Shown here piece by piece: positions 44,133-60,104 of a DNA stretch of 64,000 nt. Source of the DNA: Thermococcus eurythermalis (GTDB taxonomy: Archaea; Methanobacteriota_B; Thermococci; Thermococcales; Thermococcaceae); the NCBI RefSeq assembly GCF_000769655.1, contig NZ_CP008887.1:372001-436000 (forward strand), written 5' to 3'. The notes beneath the pieces were generated by a model. It searched no databases, was not told the DNA's origin, and saw nothing but the letters and a program-made list of their open reading frames with translations. A program made the position numbers and the translations under genes. Each line of letters opens with the position of its first letter. The stretch's first letter is position 1.

Positions 44133-47100
44133 CTAACTCCCGAAGAACTCATCGAGGCTTATGCGCTTCTTCCGCTTTGCCTTCGCCTTCTCCCTCTTGA
44201 CTTCTTTCTTGAGGTCTCTCGACTTTTCGGCCTTGGGCTTCCTCTCCCTCTCGACCTCATTCTCTGCCTTCGCTTTCCTCGCCTTCCCGTCCTTCCCGTT
44301 GAATCCATCGAGGTAGCCGTTCTTTCCGTTGGAAGAACCCGTCCGCTCCCTAATCATCTTCTCGCACACATCCGCCGAGAAGCCGAGCAGAGTCCTCTGC
44401 TTTTCGGGCAAAACCGTCTCGAAGAGCGTCTTTATGTCCTTCTCGGTCAGGCAAATCCTCTGCCTCGTGTAGTCCTTGACTTTATAGCGGGTAACCAGCA
44501 TCTTTGCAGTGGGCAGGTACTTTTCCACCGCACCTTTGCTCACCGTCAGGACGATTTTTCCACCGCACTTGGGACAGCACCCGATGAGAGGGGGTCTCCG
44601 ATATTTCGTGTTGCACTTCACACAGCGGAACTCCTGCCTCGTGAAGCTCCTCAGGTTGCCCCTTAGGTCGGGAATCAGGTGGGAGTTGAGTATCGTCTCA
44701 GCCACGTGGTGTTCATCGACCGCCCGAATCCGCTCCGCCAAAGCGAGCTGTCTCTCGACCTTCTCGACCATGTCGCCGAGCTGTTTGTACAGGCTCATCT
44801 TCGGGCCCAGACCTATATCGTCCGTATCGTGGGTGAACTTTATCCCCTCGTACATCTCGGGCTTTCCAAGGCGGTCTTCAACGCGCTCGATGAACTTAAC
44901 CTCCTTGGGCGACTTCATCTCGTAGGTGGCCTCGTAGAACTCGAGGGGGTAATAGCGGACTACGTCCATATTGTGTACCTCGCTGTCGACCTCACGCGGG
45001 TCAAGGCGCGTGGTGACGACCAGCGGGGCGTCCATTTTGCCACCGCGCTTCTCTGGGAGATAGTACTTGCTGAAGTTTAGTAGTGCATCGAGGAGAAGCA
45101 TTACGGCGTCCTCGTCGCCATCACAATTTGCTGTAGTAATATTATTACTAATTATTATAGTATGATATTTGGAGGCGCTTAGCGAGTATACAACATCGTC
45201 GGGAGACTGAATGAACTCAACAGACCTAACTTTAAGGAGAACACCCATATCAGTAGCACGCCGATAGGGTTGGAAGTTATAGCCCCTCCACTGCTTGGCA
45301 ACACTGTTCTTTCTTTTGCTAATGAATCCGATTGAATTCATGAAATTCAACGCCTGAATACCGTAGAGGTTCAAACGGTAGATTTTAGACACGGGGACGG
45401 TACCACCCTTGACCTGATGGTATTTTTGAACAACGTTGCCGGGACGGGAATTCGCATCCCTGTCCACACCCCAGCTTGAGTAAAGGCCAAATTTAGAGAT
45501 TAGCAATGTATCAATGTCCTCTAACAGGGACCGGTTAACACTGTACACAACGACCATTGGCTTCGTTCCGATAATAGTTCCATCGCCCTCAAAGTACGCT
45601 CTAAGCATCTCCGCAACAGCGTCTTTCGGCAGTGTGTAAACCAGAGAGGGAACGCGCTTTGTGTGGGCGTTGTTCCCTGCACTGAGAACTTCTGTGAAGA
45701 GCAGGTACAGAATACGCGAGCCGACTGTAACCTTTTCCCTCCGCTCGTATATCTTGAAGCCATTGCCAAAGGCATCTCTCAGTGCCCTCTTGAGGTCCTC
45801 GCGAACTTCATCGTCCGCTATCGAGAAGCTTATCTGGTAAACGCTGTTGCTTTCCCTCGCGTAGCCCTCGGCGAGGTAATAGCCAAGGACCCGCATCAGA
45901 GGCCTTATTGGGACAAAGCGCTTGACCGTCACTTTGTCCCTCTTGAAAGCGAGCCGGCAGTCGGGAACGTCTTTGATTGATAGGCCTTTCTCTTTGAGAA
46001 CGTTGAGCAGTACTGAAAGCGGTAGGGAGTCCCTGCGGAGGTAATCGTATTTGACTTCAGCCCCAATCGATGAAAGCCAGTTCGAAAGTCCGCGAACCAT
46101 TATGGAGTCCCAGAGGGATTTGAACTTCTCGTCAGCGAAGGCCTCCAACAGGTCAAGGTTTTCAAGGGAAACTTCTCCGAATTCAAGTCTCGGGACGAGT
46201 ATTCTATCGCCCTCCTTCACCTCAAAGGCCCTCTTTTCCACGAACTTCCCGTTTTCGTAGACGAGAACCGGGTGGTCGACGGTCGTTTCGAAGCTCCTCC
46301 CGAGTTCGAGCTCGAAGCGAATCAGGTGGTCGGTGCTCGGCGCTTTTATAACGTCCTCGATGTCAGTGAGAACAACCTTCCCGCTCTCGGGGTCGAAGGA
46401 GTAGACCTTAACGTCCCTCTTCGACTTCCTTCTCACGTAGACCATGTTCTCGTAGCTTTCCCCTTCAAACAGCTCGTAGAGCTCGCGGAGAGGTATCCTC
46501 GCAGGTTTTCCATCAATCTGGACTAAGATTCTCGTATCGCCAGGGAAGCAGTTCCTCCTCTTCGCCGCATGATAATACGGGTGCGCGTAGCCGACCAGAA
46601 CGTCGGAGAAGCCGATAATCCTGCCGATGATTCCGGCCGAGGTGTGGGGTGCCAAACCGATGACGAGGTGGCCTATCAAATCCTCCATCTTCTCGGCATT
46701 GTAGAACCTCGGCAGGCCGTAGAACTTCTCGAGCAGGTCATCGACGAAGCGCGCGACCTTGAGGAGGTATTTTCCGGCCTCGTAGGAGAGGATTATGTCC
46801 TGAACCTTCAGCTCGACTATCTGGTCGTCCCGCTCAAGGGGCTTGCCCTCGAAGTCGTGGGTGTAGCCAAGTTCGCGAAGCTTTTCAACGCTGACCCCTA
46901 TCTCCTTCGGCTTGAAGTGCGTTATCGGGGCGTCGGTGGCGTCGAAGCGGATTGTGCCGTCCTTGAAAACGTAGACGTCGTTCTTAACCCTCAGGAGGCC
47001 CTTTTCAAGGGGCTCGGCCATTTTGTAGCCCGATGTCATACCCTTGACGCCCTTGAGCCTGTCGATGCCGTAGACCTTGACGTTGTCCATGGCCCGCCTC

Positions 47101-49436
47101 AGAAGTTCGGAGGGCTTTATCTCCCTCTCGGCGTAGGGCCTCAGCTCGACGTCGCAGCGCGGGCACCGGAAGCCGAACTCCTTCGCCTCGCTCTCTGGGT
47201 AGTCAACGTTGCACTTGGGGCAGTGCCAGAGGAGCTCCTTCCTCGTCCCACAGACGGGGCAGAGGTGCTCGGGGCCAACGTGTCCGCACTTAGGACACTT
47301 GAAGAAGGCTATCTCGACCTTAGCTGTTTTTCCTTCCTCAGCGGCCTTCTTAATGTCCCTGCTCTGGCCTCCCGCCAAACCAATCGGGAAGAGCACCTGA
47401 ACAGGGGGCTTCATCTTCCTCTCCTTGGCCTTCTCGGGCCTGCCCATTCTGGCCCCTATCCAGCTTATTCCCCTGTCGCGGAGCTTTATCGGGTTGTTCT
47501 CGTTGATTATATCAATGACCGTGTGGAACGGCTTAGCCTTGAACTCCCATTCGAGGTTGCCGAGGGGAGTCAAGAGTGCAGAACTCCAGGGGTAGTCAAC
47601 GACGATGACCTTTCTCCTGTCCTCTGTCCTCTCGAGCCTGTGGGGCAGGCCGAGGAGCTCAAGGTAGCGCTTGATTCTGGGGTCGTTGTCAAGGATTACC
47701 TTCCTCGCGAACTTCAGCTTCCGGAACTCGTCCCACTCGATTTGGGCGTTTAGTAAAGCCTTCTGGAGTTCCTCCACTTCCTCAGGCTTCAGCGTGTTCC
47801 AGTAGAGGGTGTAGTAGGGGTGGAAGGGTATGTCCAGAACCTTCGAGAGGTGTATAGCCAGCTCGACGCTCGGCCTGACCCTGAGCGGGTCTCTCAAAAG
47901 GCTTTCTAGGAAATCAGGGTCTATTTCGAGGTACTCAGCGGCCTCTTCTATTGCCTCGCGCGGGTTGTCGGAGAACGGCTTGAGCTCGACCTCGTAAAGC
48001 TCCTCGATTGCCTTCACCAGCTCCTGAACCCACCATTCCTCGACGTAGTTGGCCGGCAAAAGCGTCTGATTGTTCTCAACGAAGTCGCCGAAGTTCACGA
48101 GGGCATCTCCGACGTATAGAATCTCCTCAATCTCGTTTTTAACCCTGAGAGCCGTCTCGTAGTCGTCAACCCGTACGACGCTCCCGTCCTTGAGCTTGAC
48201 TATCGGCCCCTCAACAGTCGTTGCGGGGGTAACGATACAGCCCTTTCCGGGCCTCTCGGTCTTCATCTGCGTTCCTATCGCTATGAACTCGTCGAGGATT
48301 ATCATTGTGGCCGGGTTGACGCTCCACGTCGCAAAACCGCTGACCCTGCTCCTCCCGTAGCGCAGGCGGAAGCCACCGTTCTCTGAGGGTTCGGCGAAGA
48401 GTGGCCTACCACCTATTATCTCCTTCGTGTACTTCTTGTTAGGGGCGATGTTGGCCTTGAACTTCTCGTAGAGCTCGTAGTAGAAGCCCTTCTCAACCTT
48501 CTCAACGATCTCTTCCTTTGCGCCCGAATCCTCAGCCTTAGAATCTTCCGAAGGGGAACTCTCAACGCTCGCACCCTTTTCCTTGGCCTCGACGAACTCC
48601 TTTATCCAGTCCCATCCCTCAATACCCATCTTGTCTATGTACTTGACAAGCTTCTTCGCCTTCTGAAGCACACCCTCGGCAAGGACGAGGATAGCGCCGC
48701 CGCGGAGGTGGTTTGTCTCAACCCCGGGGACGTTCCTGTGGCTCACTTCCACCTTATCGGTCTCTTCACCGGTTATCTCAATCGGGATGTTCCTCATGGC
48801 GAGTCTGACTTCGTCTGCCTCCGGGTGGTACTGCAGTCTCGTAACGGCTCTATGGTAGAGGTCTATCTCCTCGACCATCCTCTCTATATGCTCCTCGCTC
48901 GGCTTGAAGCGGTCGAGGCCGAGCTTTTTCCTCACGTAGTCGCCTACGAGGACGCTCAGCGCCTGGGCCGTTCCACCAGAACTCCTGATGGGTCCAGCGT
49001 AGTAGAGCGCCAAGTACTCGCTGTTATCGGCCCATGTGTTGCGCTTTATTTTAACGTCAGCGATTCCCTCAAGCGGGGCTGAGACGATACCCTCTGTGAG
49101 TATCGCGAGGGCAGTTCTGACCGCCTGCTCCGCGTACTTCTCCTTGCTCCCCAGGTCGCCGAACTTGCCCTCGATGATTTCATCAACGACCTTAAGAGCC
49201 GCCAGTTCCTTACCGTACTCCTTGACGAGCTCTCTAATCCTTTCGGCGACTCCAGGGGGGCCGACGAGGCTCTCAACACGGCCGGCCATGTCGGTTGCCT
49301 GAGGAACCTCAACATCGAGGCTTGGGTCTTTCCCCTGGGCCCGGGCCTTTCTCGCAATCTCGTAGGCCCTGTCAATCTCCCTCTGGAGTGATTCGAAGTA
49401 AGCCTTCATCTCAGACGAGTAGAGCTCTTCCCCCAT
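44133..49436 (-). CDS. polC: DNA polymerase II (PolD) large subunit DP2, intein-containing
   Basis: The catalytic subunit of the archaeal family D replicative polymerase, 1767 residues including a 475-residue intein (host protein 1292). The N-terminal region VRIRELVKEYGKELAALKVV-like start, several zinc-binding CxxC pairs (CPKCGHVGPEHLCPVC, CPKCNVDYPES), and the active site CDGDEDAVMLL are all present. The intein splits the NCDGDED active-site loop. A Lys-rich tail ends in ISLDEFFGS, a PCNA-interacting box. The start ATG 49436 abuts the stop of DP1; cdc6, polB and polC form one operon leading away from oriC. Confidence 0.97.
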   Translation of the reverse strand: MGEELYSSEMKAYFESLQREIDRAYEIARKARAQGKDPSLDVEVPQATDMAGRVESLVGPPGVAERIRELVKEYGKELAALKVVDEIIEGKFGDLGSKEKYAEQAVRTALAILTEGIVSAPLEGIADVKIKRNTWADNSEYLALYYAGPIRSSGGTAQALSVLVGDYVRKKLGLDRFKPSEEHIERMVEEIDLYHRAVTRLQYHPEADEVRLAMRNIPIEITGEETDKVEVSHRNVPGVETNHLRGGAILVLAEGVLQKAKKLVKYIDKMGIEGWDWIKEFVEAKEKGASVESSPSEDSKAEDSGAKEEIVEKVEKGFYYELYEKFKANIAPNKKYTKEIIGGRPLFAEPSENGGFRLRYGRSRVSGFATWSVNPATMIILDEFIAIGTQMKTERPGKGCIVTPATTVEGPIVKLKDGSVVRVDDYETALRVKNEIEEILYVGDALVNFGDFVENNQTLLPANYVEEWWVQELVKAIEELYEVELKPFSDNPREAIEEAAEYLEIDPDFLESLLRDPLRVRPSVELAIHLSKVLDIPFHPYYTLYWNTLKPEEVEELQKALLNAQIEWDEFRKLKFARKVILDNDPRIKRYLELLGLPHRLERTEDRRKVIVVDYPWSSALLTPLGNLEWEFKAKPFHTVIDIINENNPIKLRDRGISWIGARMGRPEKAKERKMKPPVQVLFPIGLAGGQSRDIKKAAEEGKTAKVEIAFFKCPKCGHVGPEHLCPVCGTRKELLWHCPKCNVDYPESEAKEFGFRCPRCDVELRPYAEREIKPSELLRRAMDNVKVYGIDRLKGVKGMTSGYKMAEPLEKGLLRVKNDVYVFKDGTIRFDATDAPITHFKPKEIGVSVEKLRELGYTHDFEGKPLERDDQIVELKVQDIILSYEAGKYLLKVARFVDDLLEKFYGLPRFYNAEKMEDLIGHLVIGLAPHTSAGIIGRIIGFSDVLVGYAHPYYHAAKRRNCFPGDTRILVQIDGKPARIPLRELYELFEGESYENMVYVRRKSKRDVKVYSFDPESGKVVLTDIEDVIKAPSTDHLIRFELELGRSFETTVDHPVLVYENGKFVEKRAFEVKEGDRILVPRLEFGEVSLENLDLLEAFADEKFKSLWDSIMVRGLSNWLSSIGAEVKYDYLRRDSLPLSVLLNVLKEKGLSIKDVPDCRLAFKRDKVTVKRFVPIRPLMRVLGYYLAEGYARESNSVYQISFSIADDEVREDLKRALRDAFGNGFKIYERREKVTVGSRILYLLFTEVLSAGNNAHTKRVPSLVYTLPKDAVAEMLRAYFEGDGTIIGTKPMVVVYSVNRSLLEDIDTLLISKFGLYSSWGVDRDANSRPGNVVQKYHQVKGGTVPVSKIYRLNLYGIQALNFMNSIGFISKRKNSVAKQWRGYNFQPYRRATDMGVLLKVRSVEFIQSPDDVVYSLSASKYHTIIISNNITTANCDGDEDAVMLLLDALLNFSKYYLPEKRGGKMDAPLVVTTRLDPREVDSEVHNMDVVRYYPLEFYEATYEMKSPKEVKFIERVEDRLGKPEMYEGIKFTHDTDDIGLGPKMSLYKQLGDMVEKVERQLALAERIRAVDEHHVAETILNSHLIPDLRGNLRSFTRQEFRCVKCNTKYRRPPLIGCCPKCGGKIVLTVSKGAVEKYLPTAKMLVTRYKVKDYTRQRICLTEKDIKTLFETVLPEKQRTLLGFSADVCEKMIRERTGSSNGKNGYLDGFNGKDGKARKAKAENEVERERKPKAEKSRDLKKEVKREKAKAKRKKRISLDEFFGS
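45126..46550 (-). mobile_element. DP2 intein with LAGLIDADG homing endonuclease
   Basis: A 475-residue intein in-frame in polC. It begins CFPGDTRILVQIDG after host ...AAKRRN, has the block B-type TTVDHPVLVY, and ends HTIIISNNITTAN before host Cys of CDGDED. Two dodecapeptide motifs, MRVLGYYLAEGY and MLRAYFEGDGT, mark a DOD-type homing endonuclease domain. Some Pyrococcus PolII inteins at this site lack the endonuclease; this one is full-length and probably active. Confidence 0.93.
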
Positions 49437-51614
49437 TCAAACCCCCTCGCAGAACTGGTCAAAGCTCACAACGGCCCTCAGGCGGGCCGTCTCAACGTCT
49501 ATTATCGGCACGCGCGCGGGAGTCGGGACTATGTTCACCATCTTCTGGAACTCCGTCTGCGCCTGCCAGGTGCCCGTGTTTATGACGAAGACGCCGCTGT
49601 AAATCTGGTATTCCATAACGTGGACGTGGCCGGCCTGGAAGAGGTCTGGAACGCTCTCGATGACAAGGGTATCCTCTGGGTCAGGGGCTATTGGGACTTT
49701 GTTCCCGAAGGTCGGCGCGATGTGGCGGAGCTTGAGGAGGTCAACCATCGCCTGTGCCGGGTGGTGGTGGCTTCTCCCCGGAATAAAGTCAACGACGTCC
49801 TCTATTCCCCTTCCGTGGGCCACGAGGAACTCCCTGCCATGGAGGTTTATCACGGCAGGGTTGCTTATGATGACGGCGTTCTTGAGCTTGTAGAGCGGCT
49901 TGGCATACTCCTCGTAAAAGCCGGGCTGGGGAAGGGCAGTCCTCGCGGCGTCGTGGTTGCCGGGGCCGATGAACATCGTTATATGATCCGGAACGTTGCG
50001 GAGGAGGTTTGCCAGAGCTTCGTACTGGTCAAAGATATCGGGGATTTCCAGCTCGTTGTACTGGCCGGGATAGATACCGACGCCATCAACCACGTCGCCC
50101 CCGATTATCATGTACTTAATCCTGCTCACGAGTTCTTCCTCGGCCCTGCTGTTGACCTCGCCGTTGAGCCATTCGAGGAACTTCTCAAAGGCCTTCTCGC
50201 AGAACTTGTTCGAGCCGACGTGGATGTCGCTCAGCAGAATCGCGTAGACCTTCTCTTCCAGTGGAGGCTTCTCGCGCCTGAACTTCGGCACATCCGGGAG
50301 GAAGACGCGGTTGGCGAAGAAGATTCCCCTTCCAGACTGACCGCGGAAGGCAACGACTGAATCGGGCATTATTGCGTTGTAGGCCTGGGAAGCGTTCTCC
50401 TTGTCCCTGCCGAGGAAGACTTTAACCCGCCCTGTTGCATCTTCCACCTCGAACATGTAGCCCTTCGCCGTTTCGCGCTTGTCGTTCACTAGGCCGATTA
50501 TCGTGACTTCGTCGTCCCGGACGTAGCTCAGCTTCGCGATGTCTATGACCGTCCCGATTTCGGGGTTCTCGCGGAAGATTCTGCGCATCTTCTTGAGGCG
50601 CGATTTGAAGTAGTTCGAGTACGCCTGGATTATTATCTCGCCCTCCTTGCTCGCGGCGTTCTTGACCTTGGGGGCCTCGAACTTCACGTTCTTGACGTCA
50701 AAGGTCACTTCCCAATCGTCGGGGATTTCCTTCGCGCGGTAGTGGAAGCCCTCTTTGGGCCGTATCACGACGTCTCGGTACGTTGAGTAGCTCTTCTCAC
50801 CCTCGACGTCCTCGCCAACGTACGCTATGGGAATCCCGTAGTCGCCGTAGACGATTTTGGGCTTCACTCCGTTTCCGTTCTCGCCGTTCTCATAGTACTC
50901 CTCACTGTCGGCGTAGTTCCCGTAGCCGTTGCCGTTCAGGGGCTCGGCTTCCACTGGAAGTGAGTCCTCGACGACCTCGGTTAGTGACGAATCCAATGAA
51001 CCAGAGGCTTCATCCACGAGTTCTTCAGGTTCAGGCGTTCCAGTGGAAATAAAACTCTCCCCCTCTGAAATCTCGCTGGAAATCGATTCTTCAACAGGAT
51101 TAGATGCAGGAAATTGCTCCGATTCAGCGGTTGCTCCAGTGGAAATTGAAGTCTCGCCAACAATTTTGGCGGGTTCAACGCTCTCTTCCCCAGAAGAAGC
51201 CGTGGCAACCCCGCTTTCCACGACATCTCCAGTGGAAATAGAACCCGCATCCTCCGCGAGAACTGCTTCATCAGAAGGAGCGATATCCTCGGGAGAATCC
51301 CCTTCAACGGACTCAGAAACGGAGGTCTCGCCAGTTTCAACGACATCTTCAGAGTACCCAACGTCAGCAGGACTTACAGGAGTCTCTTCTGTGGCCTCTT
51401 CCGGGGCACTATCATCGGGGCTTCCAGTGGAAACTACGCCCTTCTCCACTAGAAAGTCCATGGCCAGGGCGGAGTCTATGACAAACGTCCCCCTCGCCTT
51501 TGCGAACTTTATGAGCTCGGCAAGCGTGAAGTCCCTCTTGTAGTGGGGTTCTAGAAGATAATAGGCTGATGGAGTTATCAGGTAGTTGTTCTTGATTAAA
51601 TCCTCGACCAGCAT
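49437..51614 (-). CDS. polB: DNA polymerase II (PolD) small subunit DP1
   Basis: A 725-residue DP1, the proofreading exonuclease subunit of PolD. A short N-terminal helical domain is followed by a long acidic, Ser/Glu/Val-rich linker (about residues 50-250), an OB fold (about 345-400, IGLVNDKRETAKGYMFEVED) and a calcineurin-like nuclease domain with AILLSDIHVG, IIGGDVVDGVG, FIGPGNHDAAR and AGHVHVMEY. The linker is odd: it repeats the peptide ISTG four times because its DNA carries origin-recognition-box motifs. The start ATG 51614 overlaps the cdc6 stop (TGATG). The stop TGA directly precedes the DP2 start. Confidence 0.97.
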   Translation of the reverse strand: MLVEDLIKNNYLITPSAYYLLEPHYKRDFTLAELIKFAKARGTFVIDSALAMDFLVEKGVVSTGSPDDSAPEEATEETPVSPADVGYSEDVVETGETSVSESVEGDSPEDIAPSDEAVLAEDAGSISTGDVVESGVATASSGEESVEPAKIVGETSISTGATAESEQFPASNPVEESISSEISEGESFISTGTPEPEELVDEASGSLDSSLTEVVEDSLPVEAEPLNGNGYGNYADSEEYYENGENGNGVKPKIVYGDYGIPIAYVGEDVEGEKSYSTYRDVVIRPKEGFHYRAKEIPDDWEVTFDVKNVKFEAPKVKNAASKEGEIIIQAYSNYFKSRLKKMRRIFRENPEIGTVIDIAKLSYVRDDEVTIIGLVNDKRETAKGYMFEVEDATGRVKVFLGRDKENASQAYNAIMPDSVVAFRGQSGRGIFFANRVFLPDVPKFRREKPPLEEKVYAILLSDIHVGSNKFCEKAFEKFLEWLNGEVNSRAEEELVSRIKYMIIGGDVVDGVGIYPGQYNELEIPDIFDQYEALANLLRNVPDHITMFIGPGNHDAARTALPQPGFYEEYAKPLYKLKNAVIISNPAVINLHGREFLVAHGRGIEDVVDFIPGRSHHHPAQAMVDLLKLRHIAPTFGNKVPIAPDPEDTLVIESVPDLFQAGHVHVMEYQIYSGVFVINTGTWQAQTEFQKMVNIVPTPARVPIIDVETARLRAVVSFDQFCEGV
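50948..51434. repeat. Cluster of five ORB/mini-ORB motifs inside the polB linker
   Basis: Motif copies lie at 50948-50960 (CTTCCACTGGAAG), 51037-51049 (GTTCCAGTGGAAA followed by taaaactctccccc), 51134-51146, 51227-51239 and 51421-51434. The copy at 51037 continues with almost the same extension as the full ORBs at oriC. All fall in the disordered linker region, where they encode ISTG or PVE. Spacing between copies is 80-190 bases. Confidence 0.75.
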
Positions 51615-52867
51615 CAGAACAACCTCCTCTGCTTGGAAAGGGTGAGGGTGAGGAGGCCTCTAACCTGTTCATCGTGGCGGTAGATGTTCTTAACCATATA
51701 TGGAGTCACGTTGAGGCGGATTTCCTTCGTCCTGCCGTAGCGGCCCTTGCTGACGACCTTGGCGTTGATGATGCCGAGCATATCGAGCTCGTTGATTAGG
51801 TCGCTCACGCGCCTCTGGGTGAGGGGCTCAACATCGAGGTGGTCGCAGAGGGACTTGTAGACGGAGTAAACGTCGCCTGTGTTGGCCGGCAGTTCGCCGT
51901 TCTCGTCGAGCATGACTATGGCGTAGAGGAGCACCTTCGAGTGGAGCGGGAGCGTCTTTATGACCTCTTCCATCGTGTCCTGCTCGATCTTCTCCTGCGC
52001 CTTCCAGACGTGCCTCTCGGTTACCTTGCTCGCCCCCTCGCGCTCCGCTATCTCTCCGGCCACACGGAGCAGGTCAAGGGCCCTTCTCGCGTCGCCGTGC
52101 TCCCTCGCGGCGAGGGCAGCACAGAGCGGGACAACGGCATCGTCAAGAACACCCTCGTAAAAGGCCTCCTCCGCACGCTGCATGAGAATGTCCCTCAGCT
52201 GGTTGGCGTCATAAGGCGGGAAAACAACTTCCTCCTCGCTCAGACTCGACAGGACGCGCGCATCGAGGTATTCCTTGAACTTGAGGTCGTTGGAGATTCC
52301 GATTATGCTGACCTTCGCCCTTGAGAGCTCGGTGTTGATCCTCGTGAGGGAGTAGAGTATGTCGTCACCGCTCTTCTTGATGAGCTTGTCTATCTCGTCA
52401 AGGACTATAATCACGAAGCGCTCCCTCGCGTCTATAACCTCCTTTAGCTTGGCGTAGACCTCATCGGTTGGCCAGCCGACGAGGGGAACCTCCACACCGC
52501 TCTCAGCTTTGAAGTGGTTGACTATCCTGGCGAGAACGCGGTAGTGAGTGTCAACAATCTCACAGTTTATGTATATGACCTCAACCGGGATGTTGTACTT
52601 CTCGGAGATCTTCTTGAGCTCCTCGGTGACGAACTTCACTGTAACAGTCTTACCGGTTCCAGTCTTGCCGTAAACGAAGACATTAGAAGGAGTCTCACCG
52701 CGGAGAACAGGAACAAGGATGTGGGCGAGCTCGTCTATCTGCTCGTGCCTGTGAGGGAGTTCCTTTGGTGTGTAACTATGCCTCAGAACTTCCTTGTTCT
52801 TGAAAATCTTCTTGGCGTGGAGGTACTTCTCGAATATTGAAGTCAGGTAGTCGTCCCTGTCTCCCAT
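51614..52867 (-). CDS. cdc6: Orc1/Cdc6 origin-binding protein
   Basis: A 417-residue AAA+ initiator that binds origin recognition boxes and loads MCM. Walker A VYGKTGTGKTVTVKF is at about residues 65-80 and Walker B VIIVLDEIDKL at about 150-160. The C-terminal winged helix contains LTQRRVSDLINELDMLGI. The probable start is ATG 52867; the in-frame GTG 52882 and ATG 52876 lie in or too close to the GGTGGAGAT site. It is the first gene of the cdc6-polB-polC operon and its 5' side faces oriC with one gene between. Confidence 0.96.
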   Translation of the reverse strand: MGDRDDYLTSIFEKYLHAKKIFKNKEVLRHSYTPKELPHRHEQIDELAHILVPVLRGETPSNVFVYGKTGTGKTVTVKFVTEELKKISEKYNIPVEVIYINCEIVDTHYRVLARIVNHFKAESGVEVPLVGWPTDEVYAKLKEVIDARERFVIIVLDEIDKLIKKSGDDILYSLTRINTELSRAKVSIIGISNDLKFKEYLDARVLSSLSEEEVVFPPYDANQLRDILMQRAEEAFYEGVLDDAVVPLCAALAAREHGDARRALDLLRVAGEIAEREGASKVTERHVWKAQEKIEQDTMEEVIKTLPLHSKVLLYAIVMLDENGELPANTGDVYSVYKSLCDHLDVEPLTQRRVSDLINELDMLGIINAKVVSKGRYGRTKEIRLNVTPYMVKNIYRHDEQVRGLLTLTLSKQRRLF

Positions 52868-53125
52868 GGTTCCCATCTCCACCGGAAATTATACTCTCCC
52901 ATTATAGCACCGCCATAATCGGGCGGACAAGGAAGACATTTCGTCAAAGATACGGGATATTTTTGGATTGTATCTAAGTATTGACCGAGATTTTGAACAT
53001 ACTACCAAATCTCCACCGGAAGCACAGGATACACTGGAAAGCATTGCAGGTGTGGGTGCTGGGGTTTATATACCTTGTTGAGCAGGAAGATGTAAAACAG
53101 ATATAGGGAAGGATAGGAATTGGCC

Positions 53126-53725
53126 TCACATATAACTCCTGTCAGACTCCTCGGGAAGCACCTCCGAGAGGAGTGCCAGGGCTTCATTCTTGGACATCCC
53201 TACCCTGGAAACCAGGAAGTCAAGGAGCTCTTCCCTGCTCGCGCCGTTGCGAAGCCTCTCGTATACCATAGCAAGCACGCGCTCCCTAAGGAGCTCCTCA
53301 AACTCCTCTTCGAGGCCGAGGGCCGAGACCGCAGAGAGGAGGCCAACCAGTAGGGCAGACAGGGCGTCGTTAAACTCATCCTTTTCAAGGCTCGACGTGT
53401 CAAGGTCAACCGCGAGGTAAACATCGTCGTTCATCCCCATGAGGAGGAACTTCATGAGGTTGACTTCCGCGTTGAGCTTGAGGAGCGCGTGGTAGACCTT
53501 GAGCTTCTCGTCTTTGGTCATGGAGAAAGTCTCAAGGCCCATTGGAACGAGGAGCCTAACAAAGCCGTCTCCAAAGGAGACCATCAACGTAAACGGCATC
53601 TTTGGGTGTTCAGCAATGTAGAGTCCCGGTTCAAGCTGCCTGGCCTCCCAGGGCAGGTCAACGATATCGTTTGCATCGTCGCTCCCCGAGCGCAGCCATT
53701 CGATTATGGTCTTCTCAATCTCCAC
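53126..53725 (-). CDS. Conserved hypothetical protein beside oriC
   Basis: A 199-residue soluble protein. The sequence (WEARQLEPGLYIAEHP, TLMVSFGDGFVRLLVPMGLE and KLKVYHALLKLNAEVNLMKFLLM) resembles YbjN/type III chaperone-like folds; this is a loose impression. The C-terminal third is helical. The start is GTG 53725 behind GGTGGTT; the earlier GTG 53734 is in the ribosome binding site. It sits between cdc6 and the origin. About 240 bases separate it from cdc6; these hold the cdc6 promoter and no gene that I can see. Confidence 0.65.
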   Translation of the reverse strand: MEIEKTIIEWLRSGSDDANDIVDLPWEARQLEPGLYIAEHPKMPFTLMVSFGDGFVRLLVPMGLETFSMTKDEKLKVYHALLKLNAEVNLMKFLLMGMNDDVYLAVDLDTSSLEKDEFNDALSALLVGLLSAVSALGLEEEFEELLRERVLAMVYERLRNGASREELLDFLVSRVGMSKNEALALLSEVLPEESDRSYM

Positions 53726-53977
53726 AGGAACCACCCTAAGAAATACGATGTGGGGACATTAATGGTTTGCCCTTCCACGAGAAACGGGAAAGTTTAGTGC
53801 ACAGGTATGTGCACGAAAATTTGCATTTGGAAACACTAAAAAAGATAGGGCCACTTATTTCCACTGAAAGAGAAATGAACATAAATGAACAGCCACAAAA
53901 GAGCATTAGTGAACTTTACAATACAAACCAGTTAAATAGAAATCGTTACTATTTTGCAGAAGTTAAACAGCACATAT

Positions 53978-54007
53978 CCCCCCCAGAGTTTCATTTCCAC
54001 TGGAACC
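53978..54007 (-). promoter_or_regulatory. Full-length ORB, left copy
   Basis: On the minus strand it reads GGTTCCAGTGGAAATGAAAC then TCTGGGGGGG. It shares 18 contiguous bases (CCAGTGGAAATGAAACTC) plus the G-run with the right copy at 54262. Orc1/Cdc6 contacts both the dyad and the G-rich end in known archaeal origins. Confidence 0.88.
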
Positions 54008-54261
54008 GACTTTTGGAAGCTTCCAATAGAAGACCGTTTGTTTGTTGGTAAAAGCTCCCGTTCTTTTTTTCTGCGCTGGTTTTTATATTTTTCTATGAAC
54101 ATTCGACGAATTTGTCTGGAATTTCAACCAGAATTTCTGAACGACATCATAAACCATGGGAAAACTCACTGAACAACATGATGGCTACATACCTCAAAAA
54201 TCCATCATCTTGGTGTTTGCATTTAGCCACCCATCTAAACCCGTCCTTTTTCCGAAAGTGG

Positions 54262-54289
54262 GCTCCAGTGGAAATGAAACTCTGGGGGG
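54262..54289 (+). promoter_or_regulatory. Full-length ORB, right copy
   Basis: Plus strand GCTCCAGTGGAAATGAAACT followed by CTGGGGGG. It is in opposite orientation to the left copy, with the G-run facing away from the AT-rich core. Confidence 0.88.
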
Positions 54290-54316
54290 TCTTTTCGATG
54301 GCCATCGAAAAAGACC
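54287..54316. repeat. Long inverted repeat in oriC
   Basis: GGTCTTTTCGATGG and CCATCGAAAAAGACC abut one another as an almost perfect palindrome, differing by one T/A, between the right ORB and the mini-ORB at 54321. It could be extruded as a cruciform or bind a dimeric protein. Confidence 0.7.
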
Positions 54317-54320
54317 TTTA

Positions 54321-54333
54321 TTTCCACTGGAAA
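54321..54333. promoter_or_regulatory. Mini-ORB in oriC
   Basis: TTTCCACTGGAAA, the 13-base core of the ORB. Read on the minus strand it continues TAAAGGTCTTTTTC rather than into a G-run, so it is a mini-ORB rather than a full box. Confidence 0.75.
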
Positions 54334-54421
54334 AACTGGTCTTTGTAGTATTTTTCTGAACATTTCTGGATAGTTTTGTGGTGGGGGTATATTTTTAAGT
54401 TTTGAGTGGAAACCATCATAC

Positions 54422-55441
54422 ATGATACCGGTCACCGTCGTGAGGCGGCTTCTCCGCGTGAGGGTCAAAATCAGCCGAAACCGGTTGCTGCAGATAGCCC
54501 TCGCCGTGCTGCTGCTTGCCGTGGTGTTTGCCGTTGCATTCGCTTATTTCGAGGGTGTTGACTTCTTCACGGCCTTCTACTGGGCGATTATCACGATGGC
54601 CACAATAGGCTACGGCGATGTAACTCCTTCAAGTGCAGGAGGGCGGGTAGTTGCAATGATTGCGTCCGTCGCCGGTATCTCCACTTTCACGGCCCTCGTT
54701 TCTCTCCTGGCTGAGAACTTCATCTCTTCGTCCCTGAGGAGGATGATGGGCATGCACCGGGTTAAATACTCCAACCACTACCTCATAATTGGCCAGGGCA
54801 GTAGCGTCCCCACCTGTGTTAGCGAGCTTCTGGGTGCGATTGAGCGCGGTGAGCTGAAGCTTGCCCCTATAGTCGTGGTCTTCCCCAGTGAAGAGGAGCG
54901 CAGGAAGGTGGAGCTTCCAGAGGAAATAGAAGTTCTCATAGGGGACCCCACCAACAGGGAGACCCTTGAGAGGGCCCGTGTTGAAAAGGCTTCTCACGTA
55001 ATCTTAGCCCTCGAAGACGACTCAAAGGCCGTCTTTGTTACCCTCATGGTGAAAAGGATGTCAAATGCAAGGGTTCTCGTCGAGGTCCTGAGTGAGGAGA
55101 GCGTTGAGCTCCTGAAGGGGGCCGGTGCGGATAGGGTCATCGTGAGCAGGAGCCTGGCAGGAAGGCTTCTCGCGAGTTCTGTCTTCGAGCCTGAGGTTGT
55201 TGACGTTATAGACGACATAACGAGCTCGGTTAAGGGCTACGACGTCACCGTGATAGACGGACGGGACTTCTGGGGCAGGCCGTACATAGAAGCCCTCCGC
55301 GAGCTCAAGGAGACAAAGGACCTGTTTCTTCTGGGCTACTACTTGGATGGCCCGGTTCTCAATCCCCCGCTCGACGAGCCGATTCCTAAGGGTGCCAGAC
55401 TGATAGTTCTGAGGAGTTCCATTTCCACTGGAAAATCCTGA
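54422..55441 (+). CDS. MthK/Kch-type potassium channel with RCK domain
   Basis: A 339-residue two-helix K+ channel. TM1 is at about 22-42, the selectivity filter TIGYGD at about 61-66 and TM2 at about 75-95. A cytoplasmic RCK/TrkA-N domain follows (YLIIGQGSSVPTC, LIGDPTNRETLERA, ASHVILALEDD), then a C-terminal RCK lobe ending KGARLIVLRSS. The last residues ISTGKS are encoded by a mini-ORB (55422-55434), which overlaps the 3' end of the gene. It starts at ATG 54422, just outside oriC. Confidence 0.92.
   Translation: MIPVTVVRRLLRVRVKISRNRLLQIALAVLLLAVVFAVAFAYFEGVDFFTAFYWAIITMATIGYGDVTPSSAGGRVVAMIASVAGISTFTALVSLLAENFISSSLRRMMGMHRVKYSNHYLIIGQGSSVPTCVSELLGAIERGELKLAPIVVVFPSEEERRKVELPEEIEVLIGDPTNRETLERARVEKASHVILALEDDSKAVFVTLMVKRMSNARVLVEVLSEESVELLKGAGADRVIVSRSLAGRLLASSVFEPEVVDVIDDITSSVKGYDVTVIDGRDFWGRPYIEALRELKETKDLFLLGYYLDGPVLNPPLDEPIPKGARLIVLRSSISTGKS
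55422..55434. promoter_or_regulatory. Mini-ORB at the 3' end of the channel gene
   Basis: TTTCCACTGGAAA, identical to the 13-base ORB core, overlaps the last codons of the channel gene, about 1.1 kb from the right-hand ORB. Confidence 0.6.
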
Positions 55442-55582: not shown

Positions 55583-55622
55583 CGAACTTTACCCCCATTA
55601 AGGGTATTCCCGGGTGAGTCTC

Positions 55623-58124
55623 ATGGCGAAGAAGAAGGTTGAAGAGGTTAAAGAGCTTGAGGAGTTCGAGGAGCTTGAAATAGCCGAAAGCTCACCGTCA
55701 TCGTCCTCAAAGAAGAAGGAAAAAGAAATCAAGACCCTTGAGGATTTGCCTGGCGTTGGTCCTGCCACAGCTGAGAAGCTTCGCGAGGCCGGTTACGACA
55801 CGATAGAGGCCATAGCCGTCGCCTCACCGCTCGAGCTCAAGGAGATAGCGGGAATAAGCGAAGGTGCCGCGCTCAAGATAATCCAGGCCGCCAGAGAAGC
55901 CGCTAACATCGGAACCTTCATGCGCGCCGACGAGTACATGGAGAAGAGGAAGACCATTGGCAGGATTTCCACTGGAAGCAAAGCCCTCGACAAGCTCCTC
56001 GGAGGCGGAATAGAGACACAGGCCATAACCGAGGTCTTCGGTGAGTTCGGAAGCGGCAAGTGCTTCGCCAAGGACACTCCAGTCTACTACGAGAACGACA
56101 CCCTCGTTCACTTCGAGACCATCGGGGAGATGTACGAGAAATACCGGGCTTTGAACGGCGAAGTTCCCTTCGACACTGGCTTTGCGGTTCCACTGGAAAC
56201 GGTGAGCGTCTACACCTTCGACCCCTCAACTGGGGAAATAAGGCGAACTAAGGCGTCCTACCTGTACCGCGAGAGGGTCAGGAAGATACTTCAGCTCAAC
56301 CTGTCCCGCGGAAGGACGCTCAGAATAACCGCAGTTCACCCGGTTCTCGTCTTCAGAAACGGCCTTGAGTGGGTTCGCGCCGGGGAGCTCAGGGAGGGCG
56401 ACGTTATAGTTGGCGTTCGCAAGGTTCCAGCGAATTCAAAGAAGGTGCCTGATGAGAGGGCCTATTTCCTCGGCCTCTTCGTTGCGGAGGGGACGTCGAA
56501 CCCGCTCTCAATAACGACGGCCTCTGAAGGACTCAGGGATTTCGTAGTTGAATTCATCAAGCGCCATGACGGTTACGAACCCAGGGTTGAAGTTAGGCGC
56601 GGCCTCTACAGGATACTCCTCCGCAAGAAAACAGCCGAGTGGCTCGGGGAACTCTCCACTTCGAACGCTCAAAGCAAAGCAGTTCCGGAAAAAATACTCA
56701 ACGGTGACGAAGACGCGATAGTGAGCTTCCTTGCGGGCTATCTCGACGGGGACGGCCACGTTGCAAAATCCCACGTTGAATTCTTAACGAAGAGCAGAAA
56801 CCTTGCAGATGGCCTGGTTTTCCTGCTGAAGCGCCTTGGCATCTCGCCTGCGGTCTCTGAGAAGGAAATCAACGGTGAAGTCTATCACCGGATTTTCATA
56901 ACCGGCGAGGACAGGGCTTCATTCAGCCCGGTCCTTAAGGTTTCTCTGCTCAAGAACTCGGAGCTTCCGGACGGTGGCGTTGGAAGGTATCCACCTGTCG
57001 TTGCCCGGTACCTGGCCGCTCTTTACGGGCACTTCAGACTGCCTAAGAGGGACAACGAAACCTCCTACCACATACTAACTCGCAGTAAGAACGTCTGGTT
57101 CACAGAGGCAACCCTAGAAAGGGTCGCCGACTACTTCAGGGACGCTCTCAATAGACTGGAACTCGCAAAGAACGCGATTGAAAATGGGGAGAAACCGGAA
57201 CTTCCGTTCCCGTGGACAGCCCTTAGAAAGCACGGTTTCACCGAGAGACAGATTGCCAACTATCGCACCAGAGGGCTTCCGAAGCGCGAGCCGCTGAGGG
57301 GCAAAGTAGTCTCCGCCCTCCTGCGTGAGATTGAGGAGCACGAGAAGATAGCCAGGAAGGCCCTTGAGTTCATTGAACTCGTCAAAAAGCTTGAGTTCTA
57401 CGAGGTTAAGTCCGTTGAGCTCATCGACTACAACGACTGGGTTTACGACCTTGTCGTTCCGGAGACCCACAACTTCATAGCACCAAACGGCCTCGTTCTT
57501 CACAACACTCAGCTCGCGCACACCCTCGCCGTCATGGTCCAGAAGCCGCCTGAGGAGGGCGGGCTCGGCGGCTCCGTAATCTGGATTGACACCGAGAACA
57601 CCTTCAGGCCCGAGAGGATAAGGCAGATAGCCGAGGCCCGCGGTTTGGACCCCGACGAGACGCTCAAGAACATCTACGTTGCGCGCGCTTTCAACAGCAA
57701 CCACCAGATGCTCCTCGTCGAGAGGGCCGAGGAGATAATCAAGGAGAAGGCAGCCACCGACAGGCCGGTTAAGTTACTCGTCGTTGACTCTCTCATGGCC
57801 CACTTCAGGAGCGAGTACGTGGGCAGGGGAACCCTCGCCGAGAGACAGCAGAAGCTGGCGAAGCACCTCTCCGACCTGCACCGCCTGGCGGACCTCTACG
57901 ACATAGCGGTCTTCGTGACCAACCAGGTGCAGGCGAAGCCTGATGCCTTCTTCGGCGACCCGACGAGGCCCGTCGGTGGCCACATCTTGGCCCACAGCGC
58001 GACGCTCAGAATCTACCTAAGGAAGGGCAAGGCAGGAAAGCGCGTCGCCAGGCTCATAGACAGCCCGCACCTGCCCGAGGGCGAGGCCGTCTTCAGGATT
58101 ACAGAGAAGGGAGTTGAGGATTAA
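55623..58124 (+). CDS. radA: RadA recombinase, intein-containing
   Basis: The archaeal Rad51/RecA homologue, 833 residues including a 482-residue intein (host protein 351). An acidic N-terminus is followed by a helix-hairpin-helix ([20 protein letters not shown]), then [20 protein letters not shown] and Walker A GEFGSGK|TQLAH, which is split by the intein between Lys and Thr. Walker B is [12 protein letters not shown], and the L2 region reads [17 protein letters not shown]. The start is ATG 55623 behind GGTGAG; the GTG 55614 belongs to that site. Its GRISTG codons contain an ORB-core sequence (55966-55978). It acts in recombinational repair and replication restart. Confidence 0.97.
55966..56199. 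promoter_or_regulatory. Two mini-ORB-like motifs in radA
   Basis: TTTCCACTGGAAG at 55966-55978 (host RadA, conserved ISTGSK codons) and TTCCACTGGAAAC at 56188-56200 (inside the intein). The first coincides with a conserved protein motif, so codon coincidence is possible. Confidence 0.4.
56061..57506 (+). mobile_element. RadA intein with LAGLIDADG homing endonuclease
   Basis: A 482-residue intein starting [20 protein letters not shown] directly after GSGK and ending [11 protein letters not shown] before host Thr. Block B-like [10 protein letters not shown] and the DOD motifs [11 protein letters not shown] and [11 protein letters not shown] are intact, so both splicing and endonuclease functions look complete. 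Insertion is in the P-loop, a classic highly conserved intein site. Confidence 0.93.
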
Positions 58125-60091: not shown

Positions 60092-60104
60092 TTTCCACTG
60101 GAAA
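60092..60104. promoter_or_regulatory. Mini-ORB upstream of mtnP
   Basis: TTTCCACTGGAAA in the 128-base gap between the divergent PAC2 and mtnP genes. On the minus strand it continues TGAAGCCCGC. It lies about 5.8 kb from the right ORB, next to aacccttatatgtaag, the likely mtnP TATA element. Confidence 0.6.

Follow-up and report, generated by a model that had tools for sequence, protein, structure and literature searches.

The oriC locus and its inverted ORBs

The sequence analysed here (the window, 64,000 nucleotides) comprises positions 372001-436000 of the 2,122,535-base chromosome of Thermococcus eurythermalis; positions below are those of the window. The origin region and the genes around it are as follows.

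53735-54421: oriC intergenic region; the flanking ORFs end at 53734 and start at 54422, and the ORBs lie inside
53126-53734, minus strand: 202-aa ORF, bounding the intergenic region on the left
54422-55441, plus strand: K+ channel/TrkA ORF, bounding the intergenic region on the right
51614-52882, minus strand: cdc6/orc1 initiator gene (NCBIfam NF001625, E 1.6e-222)
49437-51614: PolD small subunit, near oriC
44133-49436: PolD large subunit, near oriC
55614-58124: radA, near oriC

The initial annotation had proposed a chromosomal oriC in a neighbourhood of replication genes, and cdc6, both PolD subunits and radA do all lie alongside the region. The radA and PolD large-subunit genes (ORFs of 836 and 1767 aa) carry apparent in-frame insertions with intein-like ends, and the match to radA of relatives is often confined to the C-terminal part. 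The 202-aa protein matched no Pfam or NCBIfam family; its AlphaFold model (pLDDT 86) bears a weak resemblance to YbjN/secretion-chaperone-like folds, and its gene adjoins oriC even in genomes with a distant cdc6. An Rfam scan of oriC gave no significant match.

Within the intergenic region, an inverted repeat of 40 nt with 93% complementarity, in which 53979-54018 pairs with 54250-54289, corresponds to two ORBs facing each other across an AT-rich core, as had been proposed. The ORBs and the elements next to them are listed below.

53978-54005, minus strand: left ORB (C-run, GAGTTTCATTTCCACTGGAA), forming the inverted repeat with the right ORB; kept in relatives
54263-54289, plus strand: right ORB (CTCCAGTGGAAATGAAACTCTGGGGGG), 25/25 to the reference
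54321-54332, minus strand: third box, a mini-ORB match (TTTCCACTGGAA)
53858-53869: degenerate mini-ORB to the left of the left ORB, one mismatch
54013-54026: perfect 14-bp palindrome, unconserved and at chance level
54290-54316: near-palindromic spacer from right ORB to third box; its sequence is kept, its symmetry is not

For comparison with relatives, a family-wide cdc6 search was run and the surroundings of cdc6 were retrieved from about 60 genomes. The ORBs were kept in nearly all Thermococcaceae examined, and the right ORB (CCAGTGGAAATGAAACTCTGGGGGG) matched at 20-25 of 25 positions in almost every genome in which oriC adjoins cdc6. The sequence at the third box, AGACCTTTATTTCCACTGGAA, is 86% similar to the left ORB across 21 nt, and in 45 genomes the box lies exactly 56 nt from the start of the right ORB. 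Allowing one mismatch or fewer, the window contains 20 mini-ORB-like 12-mers where 0.43 are expected; the box signal is therefore far above chance and reaches past 53735-54421.

For T. kodakarensis, published marker-frequency data place a replication peak at 1,712,000, and for T. barophilus at 1,671,000 (PMC11005403). The oriC positions located here, about 1,711.5 kb in G023 (presumed T. kodakarensis) and about 1,673 kb in G086 (presumed T. barophilus), agree with these peaks in both relatives. GC skew, sampled in spaced stretches of the chromosome, was too weak to serve as proof of an origin. The inverted ORBs, their retention in relatives and the two marker-frequency peaks confirm the assignment of 53735-54421, by sequence and position, as a Thermococcus chromosomal oriC that fits the Thermococcales/Pyrococcus type, with initiator binding and initiation predicted. 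The origin itself is a further example of an already known type. In T. kodakarensis, deletion of cdc6 and of the greater part of oriC leaves growth unaffected (PMC5663688).

Two palindromes had also been singled out in the initial annotation. The 14-bp palindrome is present at 54013-54026, but it is absent from relatives and does not rise above chance level, perfect palindromes of 14-16 bp numbering seven in the window; it was discarded as an origin feature. The palindrome of 29-30 bases beside the right ORB exists as the near-palindrome 54290-54316, whose 20-bp core (54292-54311) is perfect and longer than any other perfect palindrome of the window. Its sequence and length are strongly conserved, and in one relative (L094) a changed pair is compensated, all of which might be expected if the palindrome itself were a functional cruciform or dimer site. 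Two inner pairs, however, are formed in only 14/39 and 20/39 distinct sequences and broken in the other 25/39 and 19/39, mostly without compensation. Where the origin lies away from cdc6, in the genus described below, the right arm accompanies the third box and the left arm differs; the outer portion of that box is formed by the right arm. The cruciform reading was rejected on the pair counts, and we regard a role for the palindrome itself as highly improbable. As judged from these alignments, it is the sequence of 54290-54316 that is constrained and not its symmetry.

A TGAACA element in the core

The AT-rich core contains a second class of repeated sequence, not noted in the initial annotation, which in the window takes the following form.

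54080-54108, plus strand: core element TTTTTATATTTTTCTATGAACATTCGACG (family consensus TATTTATAnnTTTnTATGAACANTGTTCA; duplex sequence TATGAACAATGTTCATA), second half decayed here
54138-54143, plus strand: TGAACG half-site in the core, supported by half-site enrichment
54170-54175, plus strand: TGAACA half-site in the core, supported by half-site enrichment
53876-53891, plus strand: two TGAACA half-sites to the left of the left ORB
54357-54362, plus strand: TGAACA half-site to the right of the third box

Between the ORBs, no 6-mer is more over-represented than TGAACA, with 83 copies against 9.0 expected from shuffles of 38 cores. The element has the pattern TATTTATAnnTTTnTATGAACA(NTGTTCA), often extended to TGAACANTGTTCA. 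Among 72 aligned cores, 63 have the TGAACA half-site of the element and 45 the full TGAACANTGTTCA, usually 165-169 bp to the left of the right ORB and about 100 bp from the left ORB. Additional half-sites are enriched on the right side of the core (48 versus 8.95 expected). At the sequence level, the core between the ORBs contains a conserved non-ORB motif, as does an origin of the ucm type. Only the first half of the element survives in the window (TATGAACATTCG), and the second half has been lost in all eight Pyrococcus-like genomes, 7/8 of which have the half-site; the full palindrome is therefore not essential everywhere.

In searches of whole genomes, 47/70 contained the full palindrome, mostly as a single copy. 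Some 54 copies occur in the 70 genomes, and by their coordinates about 44 lie at oriC, at a near-fixed distance from the ORBs; the other ten or so are scattered. Non-oriC copies of TGAACANTGTTCA were noted at L153 (~3002), L144 (~2785), L148 (2845 and 2931) and L136 (~7084); one is in an apparent CRISPR spacer, and others are intergenic, possibly in integrated elements. The 27 matches of the core palindrome in a huge collection of viral contigs were judged uninformative.

In one genus, comparison of the cdc6 regions revealed no ORB pair beside cdc6. The full palindrome pointed, in complete genomes of this genus, to loci 350-620 kb from cdc6, which adjoin radA, the K+ channel gene and the 202-aa ORF. 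ORB pairs at these relocated origins were predicted from the palindrome before the loci were inspected, and an ORB pair was present at 9/9 of them, at about 100 and 168-169 bp from the palindrome. The core palindrome thus locates origins in genomes where adjacency to cdc6 misleads.

The sequence TATTTATA sits roughly at the position of a TATA box relative to TGAACA, and in one genome a copy of TGAACANTGTTCA lies upstream of a regulator-like ORF. These observations would suit a promoter joined to a repressor operator, controlling a short or antisense transcript and having no part in replication. That reading deserves some weight but is unlikely, given the concentration of copies at oriC with their near-fixed ORB spacing, the persistence of the element beside the ORB pair when cdc6 is elsewhere, and the lack of any gene start just downstream of the core element in the window. 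In the literature covered, which does not include the key Pyrococcus papers, neither the core element nor boxes that follow the origin were found described, so an earlier report of either may exist.

ORB boxes in neighbouring and distant genes

ORB boxes, likewise not noted in the initial annotation, also occur inside the genes on either side of oriC and, more rarely, farther away.

50948-51433, minus strand: five ORB boxes within the dp1 coding sequence, two of them exact (51038-51049 and 51422-51433)
55422-55433: mini-ORB in the K+ channel gene, at its 3' end (12-mer match; codon-shuffle test)
55966-55977: mini-ORB in radA (12-mer match; codon-shuffle test)
56187-56199: mini-ORB within the intein-like insertion of radA (12-mer match; position in the ORF)
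60092-60103: gene-linked ORB-like box at the MTA phosphorylase gene, just upstream of a TATA-like sequence; orthologous in 10 genomes

The boxes reach about 3-5 kb from oriC into dp1, the K+ channel gene and radA. Compared with synonymous-codon shuffles, they number 93 versus 0.41 in dp1, 23 versus 0.02 in the K+ channel gene and 16 versus 0.06 in radA. In 21 complete Thermococcus genomes, the density of exact mini-ORBs drops steeply with distance from oriC, the successive values outward being 171, 51, 3.3, 3.7, 0.48, 0.40, 0.21, 0.067 and 0.020 per genome per 100 kb. The Pyrococcus-like genus has mini-ORBs that essentially end at about 3 kb from oriC. A reversed-motif control showed no clustering at oriC, its nearest copy being 129 kb away. 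Matsunaga is said to have described an ORB cluster inside dp1 in 2007, and the dp1 cluster is in that respect already known.

Genomes with relocated origins allow the gene and the origin to be separated. When oriC lies elsewhere, dp1 has no boxes (six genomes of the relocated-origin genus). The PIN-domain gene bordering the relocated oriC has boxes in 8/8 genomes (11 versus 1.08 expected), and in 0/22 genomes when oriC lies elsewhere. This reciprocal exchange shows, at the level of sequence comparison, that near-origin boxes follow the origin, not the gene.

Farther out, boxes were compared with the ORB at nine positions outside the searched 12-mer, for which the null value is 3.47. Resemblance was 7.36/9 at 5-30 kb and 6.18/9 at 30-250 kb; sites more than 250 kb from oriC scored 4.09/9 and are hardly ORB-like. 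As their extension is close to the null level, mini-ORBs beyond 250 kb were ruled out as real boxes. A box in the coding sequence of a THUMP-methyltransferase (9 genomes) was also set aside, having a weak ORB extension (4-6 of 9) that probably reflects protein constraint. Beyond 5 kb the sites are mostly gene-linked and orthologous, those at trpS being an example, and a smooth long-range gradient was therefore not accepted as a property of the origin. The long tail of the density gradient is largely made up of a few gene-linked boxes, treated as distinct from the halo at the origin; these could form an Orc1/Cdc6 regulon or act as titration sites.

Such boxes raise the alternative that those in and around the neighbouring genes serve gene regulation by Orc1/Cdc6 and not origin function. 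An ORB-like box is present in the trpS leader in 20/21 genomes whatever the location of trpS, even where the gene is 77-133 kb away; ORB-like boxes adjoin TATA-like sequences at the MTA phosphorylase and malic enzyme genes, with a further box near tpiA; and additional Cdc6-bound regions in P. abyssi are mentioned in a review (PMC5333045). The near-origin boxes, however, are within coding sequences, their presence tracks distance to oriC and not gene identity, and gene regulation does not predict the exchange between dp1 and the PIN-domain gene, which thus counts against it. For these boxes, gene regulation is improbable.

The malic enzyme boxes are at L266, L270, L271 and L302, and the tpiA boxes at L004, L304 and L306. 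In several genomes (L125-L127, L116-L123) the start of the cdc6 match is preceded, at a distance of about 30-135 bp, by a mini-ORB, also where cdc6 is far from oriC, which could indicate cdc6 autoregulation. The trpS gene is preceded by a conserved upstream ORF of 8-9 codons, M-x-G-[GD]-[CR]-F-W-[PL]-W-stop, the last W being absent in one relative. It starts about 24 nt past the TATA-like ACTTTAAA, occurs at 18/20 Thermococcus loci and is a candidate Trp leader peptide; the ORB-like box lies between it and the trpS ribosome-binding site. The upstream ORF was seen at L003 (~1431-1460; chromosome ~452.3 kb), L150, L151, L152, L285, L290, L296, L299, L303, L307, L309, L313, L315-L318, L149 and L278.

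Proposed mechanism and known systems

We consider it probable, at roughly 85%, that the locus is an oriC combining ORBs predicted to be bound by Orc1/Cdc6, a core element for a second factor and an origin-linked halo of boxes. Orc1/Cdc6, encoded next door, would bind both inverted ORBs and the third box. Judging from Pyrococcus work, the AT-rich core would be the site of duplex opening and MCM loading. The TGAACA element, like ucm with its protein UBP in Sulfolobus (PMC12141716), would most likely be bound by a second, non-Orc1 protein that aids opening or MCM handling. The halo, extending about 3-5 kb on each side, probably raises the local concentration of Orc1/Cdc6 or titrates it soon after initiation, a role suggested by analogy with Haloarcula oriC2D (PMC3936714) and with the P. 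abyssi dp1 boxes reportedly described by Matsunaga in 2007.

For Thermococcales origins in general, we see an even chance that a putative non-Orc1 factor binds TATTTATAnnTTTnTATGAACANTGTTCA and its half-sites as a dedicated second recognition element and that a halo of Orc1/Cdc6 boxes is maintained in any genes within a few kilobases and re-evolves with new neighbours. As the genomes are related, the counts given above exaggerate how many independent events there were; the independent evidence is strongest for the origin prediction in another genus and for the reciprocal exchange between dp1 and the PIN-domain gene. At the sequence level, that exchange shows that initiator boxes in coding sequences are under selection according to how far they lie from the origin. 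With its near-fixed geometry, the core element can be approached directly by mutagenesis and protein pull-down, as ucm was in Sulfolobus. These results bear on how archaeal origins open and on why Thermococcales retain an origin that T. kodakarensis can lose.

The oriC of Pyrococcus abyssi and P. furiosus, with its ORBs and mini-ORBs, is known from the work of Matsunaga between 2001 and 2010 (reviewed in PMC4010727 and PMC5333045). The present origin resembles it in being single and linked to cdc6, and in having inverted ORBs and mini-ORBs. Boxes inside dp1 are reportedly shared as well. It differs from the Pyrococcus descriptions in that the K+ channel gene and radA carry boxes too and that there is a third box with full spacing. 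In the Pyrococcus oriC descriptions surveyed, the TGAACA core element was not found, although its half-site is present in the Pyrococcus-like genomes as noted above. The presumed oriC of T. kodakarensis is a locus of the same type, for which the authors name one ORB and three mini-ORBs; the extracts of that report contain no mention of the core element, or of coding-sequence boxes beyond the 640-bp deletion (PMC5663688).

The Sulfolobus ucm/UBP system (PMC12141716) is similar in that a short conserved non-ORB motif lies in the region of unwinding, halfway between ORBs. UBP has sites by the hundred in the genome (PMC12141716), in contrast to the full palindrome here, with about one copy per genome. 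In Haloarcula hispanica, a G-rich inverted repeat between the inverted ORBs of oriC1 acts as an enhancer, and an ORB-rich region outside the origin, oriC2D, has been proposed to titrate Cdc6 (PMC3936714). An inverted repeat between two inverted ORBs and an extra cluster of ORBs outside the origin are common to both systems. A G-rich inverted repeat of the haloarchaeal oriC1 type is absent between the ORBs here, the inverted element of the core being the AT-rich TGAACANTGTTCA; and, unlike those of oriC2D, the extra boxes lie within coding genes over several kilobases and move with the origin.
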